Source: Balneolaceae bacterium
GTDB lineage: Bacteria > Bacteroidota > Rhodothermia > Balneolales > Balneolaceae
Reading direction: 5' to 3'
Assembly: GCA_017643365.1 (NCBI GenBank)
Contig: JAEPNO010000003.1
Coordinates: forward strand, 62,001-126,000
DNA: 64,000 nucleotides
The notes under the pieces are model-generated. The model was not told the DNA's origin, made no database searches, and saw nothing but the letters and a program-made list of their open reading frames with translations. Both the position numbers and the translations under genes were made by a program. Each line of letters begins with the position of its first letter. The stretch's first letter is position 1. Below are positions 19,895-34,713 of the stretch, piece after piece.

Positions 19895-19918
19895 TCTTAA
19901 TCAAATTCGACATTGCAA

Positions 19919-21112
19919 TCATTCCTGAATTACATACTTAACAATAACCGGATTACCATCTTGATTTTTTGCCTTTGCAAATTCGACAAACTTTTTAGTT
20001 TGCTCATTAAAATTTTCCATTGATAAATCTAGCTCCTGTGCATGTTGAATTAATGTATTTTCATCAATTATCGTGAATAAATCAGTGTCGGAACTTAGGT
20101 AAATGAAAGGTGAAGGACCTTTATCTATATCATTGATAAATCTAGCATTACCAACTTGAACTTCATTTGTAGCCCTGTTATAAACTGCTAAATGCTGGCT
20201 ATAACGATTACCAACTTTTAGGAATAAAAACTCATCGGTGAATTCATAGAATGTAATGTTTGATATTAGTCCATTATTCAGAATTTCTGATTCCCAAAAA
20301 TCTCGCCAATCCCAAATTATTTCGCTGTAAGAATCTCTTTTAGCGAGCACATCATCAGTGACTTTAAACTCTTTAAAATCTAATGAATAGTATGGTACAA
20401 ATTGACCATCCTCGAATTTGTAAATCGTATCGTCTAAATGAGGAGAAAAGAATGTATCACCATTAAACTCCGAAAAGTAATTTGGAATATTATATCTGAT
20501 ACCTTCCGAACCTTTTCGAATTGTTATGTCTTTTTCGAAAATTTCCCCTTTATTATCGAAATATAGTACGTGCGAGTCTTTGTATTTATCGTCAATTCGG
20601 GAATTTAACATTGTAGCTGCGTAACCACCGTATAACTGCAAATCTTCAAGATAGAAAATATTGAATGGATTAAAATCAAGGCTAATATTGCGAAGAAAAT
20701 TCCCTTTGACGTCATAAACTACAATTTTAAATTGCCCCAACGCATGTATTTCTTCCGAATCGGTAATATAAATATCCGTTAAATGTTCCAGATCAGCTGG
20801 GCCCCTGCCAACCGGAATTTGTATGTCGTTTAGATAATACCCTTCTTCATTAAAAACCCATACGTTGTTATTCGATCTATCATAAAGAAAGAGTTTCTCA
20901 TTCTTGTTTATAATCTTAAATACATTTCCAACAAACTTATTCGGTGGTGTAACTAATTCAATATATTCGATGTCTGAAAAAAATTCTGACATCTTTAAAT
21001 TTGAGGTGGATTCAACATCAATAGATATTGAAATCGGTTTATAAATTAATCCTTCTTCTTTAATTTCACATGATACAAAAAGAAGAAGGATTACAATAAA
21101 GAACAATCTCAT
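19919..21112 (-). CDS. Six-bladed beta-propeller lipoprotein
   Basis: A 397-residue lipoprotein with the signal MRLFFIVILLLFVSC. The mature protein is a run of beta strands with blade-like repeats (GNVFKIINKNEKLFLYDRSNN; a later GYAATMLNS and a HLDDTIYKFEDG segment), as in six-bladed propeller proteins of Bacteroidota. Such proteins are commonly found beside NVEALA-type peptides, and one lies directly upstream here, separated by 15 bp. The gene is much richer in AT than the flanking genes, which suggests lateral acquisition of the pair. It is probably a surface-exposed or periplasmic binding partner of the peptide. Confidence 0.75.
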   Translation of the reverse strand: MRLFFIVILLLFVSCEIKEEGLIYKPISISIDVESTSNLKMSEFFSDIEYIELVTPPNKFVGNVFKIINKNEKLFLYDRSNNNVWVFNEEGYYLNDIQIPVGRGPADLEHLTDIYITDSEEIHALGQFKIVVYDVKGNFLRNISLDFNPFNIFYLEDLQLYGGYAATMLNSRIDDKYKDSHVLYFDNKGEIFEKDITIRKGSEGIRYNIPNYFSEFNGDTFFSPHLDDTIYKFEDGQFVPYYSLDFKEFKVTDDVLAKRDSYSEIIWDWRDFWESEILNNGLISNITFYEFTDEFLFLKVGNRYSQHLAVYNRATNEVQVGNARFINDIDKGPSPFIYLSSDTDLFTIIDENTLIQHAQELDLSMENFNEQTKKFVEFAKAKNQDGNPVIVKYVIQE

Positions 21113-21127
21113 TATGGATAAATAAGG

Positions 21128-21373
21128 TTACAGATCATTACCACTGCATGAATCCTGTGATGAAATTACACAATACCAATCAGGCGTAGATCTACAAATT
21201 AGCATTGGCCTTCCTGTTACCCAACAAGTCTCTTCAACCATTGTAAAATCCTTAGCAGACCATTGCCGTGCTTCAGCTTCATTTATAATAGTTACATTTT
21301 TGTCATTGGATAGTAAGTTTACATTCATTAAGAGAATGGAAAGAAATCCAATTTTCAGAATTTTGTTCATCAT
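21128..21373 (-). CDS. Small Cys-rich exported peptide, NVEALA-like
   Basis: An 81-residue protein with an N-terminal hydrophobic segment (KILKIGFLSILLMNVNLL). A short INEAEARQW motif like the NVEALA signature follows. The C-terminal part is about 35 residues and carries four cysteines (TCWV, ICRS, YCVI, SCSG). NVEALA proteins in Bacteroides are paired with six-bladed propeller lipoproteins, exactly as here. The layout suggests a leader followed by a cleaved, disulphide-bonded or modified core. Neither processing nor modification enzymes are visible in the window. Family membership is by motif and context only. Confidence 0.6.
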   Translation of the reverse strand: MMNKILKIGFLSILLMNVNLLSNDKNVTIINEAEARQWSAKDFTMVEETCWVTGRPMLICRSTPDWYCVISSQDSCSGNDL

Positions 21374-21639
21374 GACAATTCGAATTAGTTAGTATTTAAT
21401 ATGCTAATATTTAGAACTATAACTATAAACTACTTTTTATTGTTGAAATAAAAAAATTCTTTTCAAATTGTAGATATTAAATTCGGTTTCTTTTCACTGG
21501 ATATACAGTTACTTCTATTCGGCTAGATAATTTTCTTTTGATTGAATGTTTAATTGTCCTATTTCTAAAAACGAAACCAAAGAGATAGTGTTAGAAATCA
21601 ATTTTAAGAACACATCAGATTATAACCAGCAGTTTTAAT

Positions 21640-31074: not shown

Positions 31075-34000
31075 ATGGCTTTATTTCAGAATTCGGTTTT
31101 AAAAAAATACTTAGCAGGGGTAAATGAAAATGAACTTAATGCTGCCTGGGAGGTCTTTACCAGCCATTTTCATAACCCTGAGATTCAAGCCAATATCAGA
31201 GAAGCAAAGGAAGAATCTTATCAAGAAGGATTTTTGGATGACTTGTTTGTAAAGGTTTTAGGATACACCAAAAACCCGAATCCCAACTATAATTTAGTTG
31301 TAGAGCAAAAGAACCTTACGGATTCTAAAAAAGCCGATGGCGCTATGCTCGATAATGATAAAGTACGTGGCGTCATCGAATTAAAGGGCACAGAAACCAC
31401 CGATTTATCGAAAGTGGAGACGCAAGCATTTGGTTATAAAAACAAGCAACCGGATGCCGTTTATGTAATCATTTCTAATTTCGAGAAGCTTCGATTCTAC
31501 ATCGATAATGCCGTTGATTTCGTTGAGTTCAACTTATTCACTTTAACAATTGAAGAATTTAAAGTTCTCTGGCTTTGCCTAGGCTATCCGAATTTTATTA
31601 AAGGTTTACCAAAAAAGATTAAAGAAGCTTCGCTTACCGAAGAAGAAAACGTCACCAAGAAACTTTACAAAGATTACTCAGCCTTTAAAAACGACATCTT
31701 CGAAAGCGTAAAGAAGCACAATCCTACCCACGACAAGCTTCTTTTGTTCAAAAAAACACAGAAACTGTTAGACCGATTTCTGTTCATATTCTTTGCCGAA
31801 GATCGAAACCTGCTCCCACCCAATTCCATCAAAAAAATTATTCAACAATGGCACAAACTTAAAGAACTGGATGAGTACAGACCTCTGTACGATCGTTTTG
31901 TAAAGTATTTCGGATACTTAAACCAAGGCAGAAACCTACCCGGTAAAGACGAGATTTTTGCCTACAACGGTGGTTTATTCGCTGAAGATGAATTGTTGAA
32001 TTCCCTCAAAATTTCAGATGATCTCCTTTACAAACACACTTTACAGCTCAGCAAATACGATTTTGAAAGTGAAGTAGATGTAAACATTCTCGGGCATATT
32101 TTTGAGCATTCCCTTAATGAAATCGAGGAAATCAGTGCCGAGTTAAAAGGCGAAAAAATTGATACTTCAAAAACTCGCCGAAAGAAAGACGGAGTATTCT
32201 ATACGCCCAAGTACATCACCAAGTACATTGTTGAACATACGGTTGGGAAGCTTTGCGAAGAAAAAAAGGAAGCACTGGGACTGAAAGAAGATGAATATGT
32301 TCCAAATCGCCACAAGAAAACAAAACAGACGCTACTCGACACCTTAGATACTTACCGGGAATATCTGTTCTCGTTAACCATTTGTGATCCGGCGTGTGGA
32401 AGTGGAGCTTTTCTCAATCAGGCATTAGAGTTTTTGATAGAAGAACATCGATTTGTGAGTGAATTGGAAGCAAAGTTGCTGAACCGACCATATGCCGTGT
32501 TTGATGTAGAATCTCAAATTCTAGAGAGAAACCTGTTTGGCGTTGATATCAATGAAGAATCGGTTGAGATTGCCAAACTAAGCCTGTGGCTGCGAACCGC
32601 ACAAAAAGGGCGCAAACTCACCTCGCTGAATAACCATATCAAATGTGGAAACTCGCTGATTGACGATCCCGAAGTGGCGGGCGACAATGCTTTTAAATGG
32701 GAAAAAGAGTTCCCCAATGTGTTCCGCCAAAAAGAAAAGCAAGCCTTCCATGTTACTTGGGTAACGCATAATGCGCGCACTTCGCAACGGATGATAGAGT
32801 ACAAGGTGAAGAAGGGCGAAGCTATCTGGCTGGATAAAGAACTGGAAATGGTGGTAGCCAAAGAGCTGGCAACGATTATCGCTGAAGATAAACTGAATGT
32901 GTTGAATTGGAATATCTGCGGTGATCATGTGCATATGTTATTGGCCTGCGAGCCTGATGAGCTGGCAAATATTGTGCGGAAGCTGAAAGGACGAAGTGCT
33001 CAAAAAACGAAGGAATATCTAAAGGTCCCTAAGGAGGAGGTCTTTCATTTATGGGCACAGAAATTCAATCGCAAACCTGTTGATGATGAAGACGGACTTT
33101 CGAATGTGTACAATTACATTCAGCATAACCGCGATAAGCACAACCTACCCCTCAACAAGGAGTTGCAACTCCTTGTCTCGGAGGTGTGTGTTAGCTACGA
33201 AAAAGCCTTCCAGCCGGAATATTCCGGCGGTTTTGATGTGGTGATTGGGAATCCGCCTTATGTGAGACAGGAGTTATTTGGGGATATGAAACCCTATTTT
33301 GAAAGTACTTTTAATGTTTATGAAGGTACTTCTGATCTGTTTGCCTATTTCTATGAACAATCCCTTCTACTTCTCAAAGATCAGGGAGTTTTGGGGTTTA
33401 TTTCTAACACATTTGATAAAACTAAAGCAGCGATTAAACTCAGGAAATACCTTTCTGAACAAACGACTTTTGAAAAATATGTGGATTTCACTGAAGTTCA
33501 AATATTTGAAGGAGCAACAACTTATCCAATCATAATAACAGCTTCAAATAAAACGACTAATAACAACCTGTTCGATTATGTTAAAATCCCAAAGAGTAGC
33601 CAATCAAAAGTTATTGACATTGAATCTCAAGTACACTCAACGGTAGATCAAAGCTCATTGAATCATAAAAACTGGGATTTTAACTCAGTTGAAGAAATAG
33701 AAATCATTAAGAAGCTTAAGTCACACTCTGAAATTGTAAAGCTTTTTGGGAAGAGCTATAGAGGGATTGTCACTGGGTTTAACGAAGCATTTATAATTGA
33801 TCGTGAAACCAAAGTGAAGCTTGAAAATGAGCATATAAGTTCTAAAGAACTAATAAAGCCCTTGTTTGAAGGAAAAGATTTAAGCAAGTGGAATACTCCA
33901 AATACTGATAAGTATATTATTTTCACCAGAAGAGGGACGATTATTGATGATTATCCCGCGATAAAAAGGTATTTGGAACAATATAGAGAAAGGTTAACGC

Positions 34001-34713
34001 CTAGAAACTCACCAGAAATTAAGGTTGGGAGAAAATCTGGCCCTTATAAATGGTACGAAATACAAGATGCTGTGGACTATTATGAAAAATTTGAAATGCC
34101 AAAAATTACTTGGCCAAACCTTCAGTCTGAAAGCAAATTTTCCATTGATCAAAAAGGATATTACATCAATGCACCGTCAGTAATTTTACCCGTTGGAAGT
34201 AAAACAATACTTTGCATTATCAATTCTAAGCTTATATGGTTTTTTCTAAAATCAATTTGCGTAGTTAGAAGTGGCGGTTACATTGAAGTTAAGCCACAAT
34301 ATTTCGAACAGATCCCAATTCCTGAGTTAAGAAATGAAGAAGAATTTGAGAAGCTTGCCACTCAAATAATTAATCTAACATCAGAGATTCAAAATGTTCA
34401 AGGAAATTTCCGCCAGTTACTCCAATCCAAATTCGACATCGAGAAACTCAGTAGGAAACTCGAAAACTGGCATGAGCTTTCGTTCAAGCAATTTTTGGTG
34501 GAGCTAGAAAAAGCACGAAAGAAGGCAACAAAAGCTTATGAGCCTTTGCCATTACAAGAACAAGCCGAATGGATGGACTATTTCAACCAACAAAAAGCCA
34601 AAGCCGACGAACTCAAGGCTCAAATCACCCAAACCGACAAAGAGATTGATGCGATGGTGTATGAGCTATACGGCTTGACGGAAGAAGAAGTCAAGATTGT
34701 GGAGCAGTCGTGA
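31075..34713 (+). CDS. Type IIG restriction-methylation enzyme with inserted Y1 transposase domain
   Basis: A 1212-residue enzyme. The nuclease part has Asp88 and Glu102-x-Lys104 (GVIELKG), a PD-(D/E)XK arrangement. The adenine methyltransferase core follows, with motif I DPACGSGAF from residue 438 and catalytic NPPY at 726-729. C-terminal regions form the target-recognition domain and coiled coil. Between motif I and NPPY lies an additional domain (about residues 557-710) with a His618-Val-His620 pair in GDHVHMLL, an LKGRSAQKTKEYL helix and Tyr681 in NYIQHN. This is the HUH/Y1 transposase fold. Cutting and methylating the same site in one polypeptide is typical of Eco57I relatives. The recognition region (33300-34400) is more AT-rich than the rest. 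Confidence 0.88.
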   Translation: MALFQNSVLKKYLAGVNENELNAAWEVFTSHFHNPEIQANIREAKEESYQEGFLDDLFVKVLGYTKNPNPNYNLVVEQKNLTDSKKADGAMLDNDKVRGVIELKGTETTDLSKVETQAFGYKNKQPDAVYVIISNFEKLRFYIDNAVDFVEFNLFTLTIEEFKVLWLCLGYPNFIKGLPKKIKEASLTEEENVTKKLYKDYSAFKNDIFESVKKHNPTHDKLLLFKKTQKLLDRFLFIFFAEDRNLLPPNSIKKIIQQWHKLKELDEYRPLYDRFVKYFGYLNQGRNLPGKDEIFAYNGGLFAEDELLNSLKISDDLLYKHTLQLSKYDFESEVDVNILGHIFEHSLNEIEEISAELKGEKIDTSKTRRKKDGVFYTPKYITKYIVEHTVGKLCEEKKEALGLKEDEYVPNRHKKTKQTLLDTLDTYREYLFSLTICDPACGSGAFLNQALEFLIEEHRFVSELEAKLLNRPYAVFDVESQILERNLFGVDINEESVEIAKLSLWLRTAQKGRKLTSLNNHIKCGNSLIDDPEVAGDNAFKWEKEFPNVFRQKEKQAFHVTWVTHNARTSQRMIEYKVKKGEAIWLDKELEMVVAKELATIIAEDKLNVLNWNICGDHVHMLLACEPDELANIVRKLKGRSAQKTKEYLKVPKEEVFHLWAQKFNRKPVDDEDGLSNVYNYIQHNRDKHNLPLNKELQLLVSEVCVSYEKAFQPEYSGGFDVVIGNPPYVRQELFGDMKPYFESTFNVYEGTSDLFAYFYEQSLLLLKDQGVLGFISNTFDKTKAAIKLRKYLSEQTTFEKYVDFTEVQIFEGATTYPIIITASNKTTNNNLFDYVKIPKSSQSKVIDIESQVHSTVDQSSLNHKNWDFNSVEEIEIIKKLKSHSEIVKLFGKSYRGIVTGFNEAFIIDRETKVKLENEHISSKELIKPLFEGKDLSKWNTPNTDKYIIFTRRGTIIDDYPAIKRYLEQYRERLTPRNSPEIKVGRKSGPYKWYEIQDAVDYYEKFEMPKITWPNLQSESKFSIDQKGYYINAPSVILPVGSKTILCIINSKLIWFFLKSICVVRSGGYIEVKPQYFEQIPIPELRNEEEFEKLATQIINLTSEIQNVQGNFRQLLQSKFDIEKLSRKLENWHELSFKQFLVELEKARKKATKAYEPLPLQEQAEWMDYFNQQKAKADELKAQITQTDKEIDAMVYELYGLTEEEVKIVEQS
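32741..33212 (+). mobile_element. In-frame Y1/HUH transposase-like insert within the type IIG gene
   Basis: The 10-bp AAGCCTTCCA occurs at 32741-32750 and again at 33203-33212, exactly 462 bp (154 codons) apart. It flanks a segment coding for a HUH-type transposase domain (FHVTWVTHN start, HVH, Tyr681). Removing the segment would join NVFRQKEKQAF to QPEYSGGFDVVIGNPPY, the usual spacing of Eco57I relatives. The reading frame is kept and catalytic residues look intact, so it is either a domesticated or a still active element. Confidence 0.75.
33155..33176. repeat. Perfect 22-bp palindrome inside the insert's coding region
   Basis: acaaggagttg is followed by its exact complement caactccttgt. 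It lies at the 3' end of the transposase-like insert and codes for part of NKELQLLV. Its design matches the intergenic palindromes at 34752 and 34872. Confidence 0.85.

Follow-up and report, generated by a model that had tools for sequence, protein, structure and literature searches.

An AT-rich two-gene cassette in a Balneolaceae genome encodes an exported four-cysteine peptide and a predicted six-bladed propeller lipoprotein

The locus described here lies in a window of 64,000 nucleotides, the whole stretch of DNA that was analysed, from the genome of a Balneolaceae bacterium, and consists of a gene for a small exported peptide followed directly by a gene for a beta-propeller lipoprotein, the two being read in the same frame and probably co-transcribed (Table 1). 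A preliminary description of this DNA had proposed an exported peptide of 81 residues with an INEAEA string and four cysteines, encoded 15 bp upstream of the start of a propeller lipoprotein in an AT-rich patch, and each of these features was recovered in our analysis. The peptide has a hydrophobic N-terminus of the Sec type (residues ~5-21) with no GG site, then a long spacer and an A-x-A-like site (INEAEA/R, with INEAEA at residues 30-35), and ends in an acidic core of ~45 aa, with cysteines at positions 50, 60, 68 and 76. It matched no family in Pfam, its sole NCBIfam match was LIC10965 at 17.1 bits against a cut-off of 130, and a search of the PDB with the peptide profile returned no match.

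Table 1. Positions of the peptide/propeller pair and its surroundings in the window, and of related genes in other sequences (numbered within the sequence named)
Feature	Sequence	Position	Strand	Basis
Exported 4-Cys peptide, 81 aa	window	21128..21373	-	Open reading frame, family alignment A1, relatives adjoining propellers
Predicted six-bladed propeller lipoprotein, DUF5128/DUF4934, 397 aa	window	19919..21112	-	PF17170, PF16288, clade-A tree, PDB 4raa by profile
Intergenic gap, 15 bp	window	21113..21127	-	Sequence; peptide and propeller genes in same frame
AT-rich cassette, read as inserted, only the pair inside	window	19895..21639	.	GC content and congener comparison
AT-rich region preceding the peptide gene, presumed promoter for both genes	window	21374..21639	-	No convincing motif
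Type IIG restriction-methylase, 1212 aa	window	31075-34713	+	
Peptide, own-genome pair G000:C49	L175	6747-7052	-	
Propeller, own-genome pair G000:C49	L175	5556-6743	-	
Peptide, own-genome pair G000:C17	L174	ending 5899	+	
Propeller, own-genome pair G000:C17	L174	from 5904	+	
S26 gene within peptide/propeller locus	L108	13838-14725	-	
S26 gene within peptide/propeller locus	L111	3296-4180	-	
S26 gene within peptide/propeller locus	L065	4343-4978	-	
Small HTH gene beside cassette, G081	L090	356-811	-	
Small HTH gene beside cassette, G081	L090	3584-3850	-	
Small HTH gene beside cassette, G081	L072	2855-3115	+	

The lipoprotein, whose lipobox cysteine is Cys15, is a profile member of the DUF5128/DUF4934 group: it matches PF17170 ('DUF5128, 6-bladed beta-propeller') at 3.8e-34 (118.8 bits vs a gathering cut-off of 22.9), covering profile positions 13-307 of 321, and PF16288 at 1.9e-6. 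A solved exported protein (PDB 4raa) was matched by the profile of its clade at 3.4e-11, and a single-sequence AlphaFold model of the propeller had a pLDDT of 36, too low for use. Propellers paired with the window type of peptide form a supported clade (99/97, clade A) inside DUF5128, and the window propeller differs from the family at large in belonging to this sub-clade with a peptide type of its own. Since three of the nine clade-A propellers (G051, G073 and G081b) have no upstream peptide, the propeller can act alone.

The two genes are the sole content of a 1745-bp cassette that is bounded by genes for an aminotransferase and a GNAT protein; its GC content is 30.8%, as against ~45% for the aminotransferase and SulP genes that flank it. 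Both congeners sampled for comparison lack the pair at this site; in one of them (G002) the orthologous flanking genes lie 8 bp apart, with the flanks 79% identical, and in the other (G001) a different gene follows ~30 bp after the aminotransferase. The simplest reading is that a two-gene cassette was inserted in the window lineage, the alternative being two losses. At the edges of the island a 6-bp match was the most that could be found as a target-site duplication, promoter and terminator scans of the pair gave no enrichment over shuffles, PADLOC had no match on the DNA, and a viral-contig scan confirmed no relatives. Another AT-rich stretch of the window, at 30-34 kb, carries an Eco57I/MmeI-like restriction-methylase. 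Within its methylase, at residues 585-685 and just ahead of where the Eco57I match resumes, lies a Y1 transposase domain of the IS200 type (PF01797, 5.4e-12).

The peptide had also been called NVEALA-like, with a propeller partner of the kind seen in Bacteroides, and of this proposal the architecture stood while the family membership did not. The NVEALA profile (PF14055, curated cut-off of 27 bits) finds nothing in the peptide's own genome even at E<=10, and among this and 392 further genomes of the phylum it scored above its cut-off in two Bacteroides-type genomes only. An hhalign comparison with the real NVEALA peptides of those genomes (G328 and G414) aligned just 22 columns, all in the signal peptide, at 31% probability, and left the mature parts without similarity. 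The N[VI]EALA motif is likewise not conserved, INEAEA occurring in the window peptide alone and giving way to NDAEA, VQAE or DADA in its relatives (alignment A1); what persists across the family is an A-x-A-like signal-peptidase site. In G328 and G414 the NVEALA peptides stand in arrays, each before a TolB_like (PF15869) or DUF5128 (PF17170) propeller, once with an intervening gene, and these pairs share with the window pair a small exported peptide with a long spacer, an A-x-A-like site and a Cys-containing tail, a propeller directly downstream, and the presence of several pairs per genome. NVEALA peptides combine a conserved leader with a variable tail, however, whereas the window family has a conserved tail and a variable leader. 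A true NVEALA member that has diverged beyond profile detection would account for these common traits, as well as for the equal length and the A-rich cleavage-like motif, but the silence of the profile, an alignment restricted to the signal peptide and the loss of the motif within the family make this improbable, and 'NVEALA-like' is best taken as a loose visual likeness.

True relatives of the peptide were found instead in a search of 147 related genomes, in G019, G062 (two), G037 and G081. Conserved pairing in relatives, on which the preliminary description had made its proposal depend, was found throughout, every relative having as its neighbour a propeller of the kind present in the window (with a contig break between the two in G081). 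In the family alignment of these five peptides and that of the window, four cysteines and one glutamine are invariant and the leader is unconserved, which defines an unnamed family with the pattern C-x-x-G..C-[RK]..C..Q..C. The profile made from these six sequences additionally finds G056 and G204, the latter in another family of the phylum, where the peptide has an ordinary signal peptide ahead of the same Cys pattern and is followed immediately by a DUF5128 propeller, among unrelated flanking genes. Across 394 genomes all seven matches with E<=1e-5 adjoin a propeller, directly upstream of it; matches with E>=5e-4, most of which have stops or no propeller near, were counted as chance. The genes around the cassettes vary from case to case. 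Because the relatives keep the four invariant cysteines, each beside a propeller of the same kind, the pair is more than a chance association.

The pairing extends beyond this one peptide family. Counting as a Cys peptide any short exported ORF that has three or more cysteines and lies no more than 300 bp upstream, we found one upstream of 43 of the 127 propellers in the fetched loci vs 16 of 605 other long ORFs (Fisher 3e-23), and upstream of 33 of 108 propellers vs 12 of 430 others (Fisher 5e-16) once the window and the loci fetched by peptide were dropped, these p-values being indicative, given a simple classifying rule and non-independent loci. Several of the 'other' genes with such a peptide are probable propellers overlooked by the model. 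The window's own genome contains three PF17170 places, one of them just under the curated cut-off; each is immediately preceded by a Cys peptide, and next to one of them lies a probable fourth pair. The peptides of two own-genome pairs (G000:C49 and G000:C17, Table 1) are Cys-rich and unrelated in sequence to that of the window. A functional propeller beside a hitch-hiking small ORF would be in keeping with the existence of orphan propellers, but the Cys spacing kept in distant genomes, the fixed gene order and the enrichment in the reduced set of loci make such a chance neighbourhood very improbable, and the conserved pairing largely refutes it.

The route of export differs by lineage, while the Cys core and the propeller are constant: NVEALA leaders occur in the Bacteroides-type loci, an ordinary signal peptide in G204 and double-glycine leaders in G293. 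The last of these genomes (contig C20, L180-L183) has a tandem array of ~7 double-glycine Cys peptides in which the leaders are near-identical and the cores differ; every peptide has a propeller-like lipoprotein of its own after it, often together with a C39-peptidase piece. The array resembles double-glycine precursors of the TIGR04149 type, with a best score of 21.5 bits vs the 25-bit cut-off, and the window peptide differs from these in its Sec-type N-terminus and in having neither a GG site nor a match to the leader profile. The C39 pieces are short and stand-alone, with no transporter visible.

Peptide cores and propellers diverge together. Identities of cores, taken pairwise, correlate with those of propellers, with r=0.62 in the window family (n=8, Mantel p=0.0009), r=0.68 in the G293 array (n=7, p=0.003) and r=0.56 in the NVEALA pairs of Bacteroides (n=10, p=0.005), the corresponding leader-to-propeller correlations being 0.05, 0.23 and -0.10. 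That the leaders track the propellers weakly or not at all argues for core and propeller forming a unit. Linked genes may co-diverge through co-inheritance alone, and the contrast with the leaders weakens this explanation without removing it, because leaders are saturated or homogenised. Even numbers of cysteines occur in 47 of the 54 tails (p=1e-8), which points to disulfides. Tail net charge is negative in 40 of the 49 peptides scored, zero in 7 and +1 in 2, and this predominance of acidic or neutral tails (47/49) speaks against a classical cationic membrane-active antimicrobial. Individual genomes collect several divergent pairs, as is expected of a self/non-self or a ligand-receptor system.

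Genes fitting export or disulfide handling are found next to a number of pairs, e.g. signal peptidase S26 (three), a C39 peptidase, MauE, AhpC-like proteins, DUF1573 and CxxC lipoproteins, the CxxC proteins having been identified by inspection and, for the most part, not by Pfam. An S26 gene lies near the NVEALA-leader pairs of Bacteroides-type loci, and the G056 cassettes also adjoin one; the S26 genes of the pair loci are possibly dedicated to long-spacer leaders. The window pair has none of these helpers beside it, so that in its case the general machinery of the cell would have to serve; a single S26 signal peptidase gene is present in the genome. The small HTH genes beside the G081 cassettes have the N-terminus MKNGDKQ in common and differ in HTH class (AraC- or LuxR-like).

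Our main reading, to which we give a probability of about one half, is that the pair comprises a secreted or periplasmic disulfide peptide and its cognate propeller binder. The peptide would be exported by Sec and then probably cleaved near EAEA/R, and its core, located in the periplasm or outside the cell, would fold round two disulfides. The propeller lipoprotein encoded alongside would recognise the core specifically, reading the core and not the leader, and would hold it, neutralise it or respond to it at the envelope, with the two genes travelling together as one unit.

As to what such a pair is used for, antagonism, signalling and a structural or redox complex rank close together. Bacteriocin-like antagonism, in which the released disulfide peptide would harm close relatives and the lipoprotein would be the immunity protein, is possible but doubtful. 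The strong peptide matches (7/7) always come with a propeller and orphan propellers exist, as with toxins and orphan immunity genes, a pattern of orphan propellers and no orphan peptides that favours a role in immunity or binding; the cassette is mobile, and tandem arrays combine conserved leaders with divergent cores, with C39 peptidase accompanying the double-glycine leaders. There is also a precedent in Tsi1, a partial beta-propeller and periplasmic immunity protein that binds the co-encoded Tse1 (PMC3391265), a likeness to the window pair in arrangement rather than in any demonstrated sequence relation, and limited by Tse1 being an enzymatic T6SS effector and Tsi1 a partial propeller. Against antagonism, a 2012 survey reported no immunity proteins of the beta-propeller type (PMC3482391). 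The tails are unlike those of membrane-active bacteriocins in being acidic or neutral, and the core of the window family is recognisably conserved across families rather than hypervariable, which together weigh against a fast-evolving killer peptide. Peptide signalling, with the propeller as receptor in a pheromone-like sensing at the envelope, seems unlikely: core and propeller co-diverge, and small LuxR- or AraC-type HTH genes lie directly upstream of several cassettes (GerE three times, AraC twice; G056, G081, G019 and G047), but the window pair has no regulator beside it, the propeller lacks any transmembrane or output domain, and there is no adjacent sigma/anti-sigma pair, one FecR-like gene excepted.

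In methylamine dehydrogenase a small subunit, MauA, is paired with the MauB propeller, accompanied by MauE and MauD, and by analogy the peptide could be a small subunit rich in disulfides within a complex with the propeller, its folding being aided by MauE and thioredoxin-like proteins. A Cys-rich small exported partner, strict adjacency to a propeller, even Cys counts, and MauE and CxxC lipoproteins adjoining pairs in several loci all agree with such a redox complex, which we nevertheless hold to be no less unlikely than signalling. No Trp pair or cofactor-forming residue is conserved in the window-type pairs, the G081 and G204 cores are without the CW motif (the core Trp, examined as a test of a methylamine-dehydrogenase-like small subunit, is off the common place in G081 and absent in G204), and neither MauG nor a cytochrome was seen among the neighbours. 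Furthermore, the propeller is six-bladed by its Pfam name rather than seven-bladed, and many divergent copies per genome would be odd for an enzyme; membership in the methylamine dehydrogenase system is not claimed.

Our main reading of the window pair can be widened, tentatively and with less confidence than for the pair itself, to a phylum-wide mobile class of two-gene cassettes, in which a disulfide peptide carrying its lineage's own leader and a co-evolving propeller lipoprotein may serve self/non-self recognition or antagonism at the envelope. Both the NVEALA peptides and the DUF5128 propellers have been catalogued as families, and our literature search on NVEALA, DUF5128, DUF4934 and their pairing found no description of them. 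The data lead to a testable statement, namely that each peptide core should bind the propeller encoded with it and none of its neighbours' propellers. If true, this would provide a function for a sizeable group of lipoproteins in Bacteroidota, and would bring to light small secreted proteins of a class that leader-based profile searches miss.
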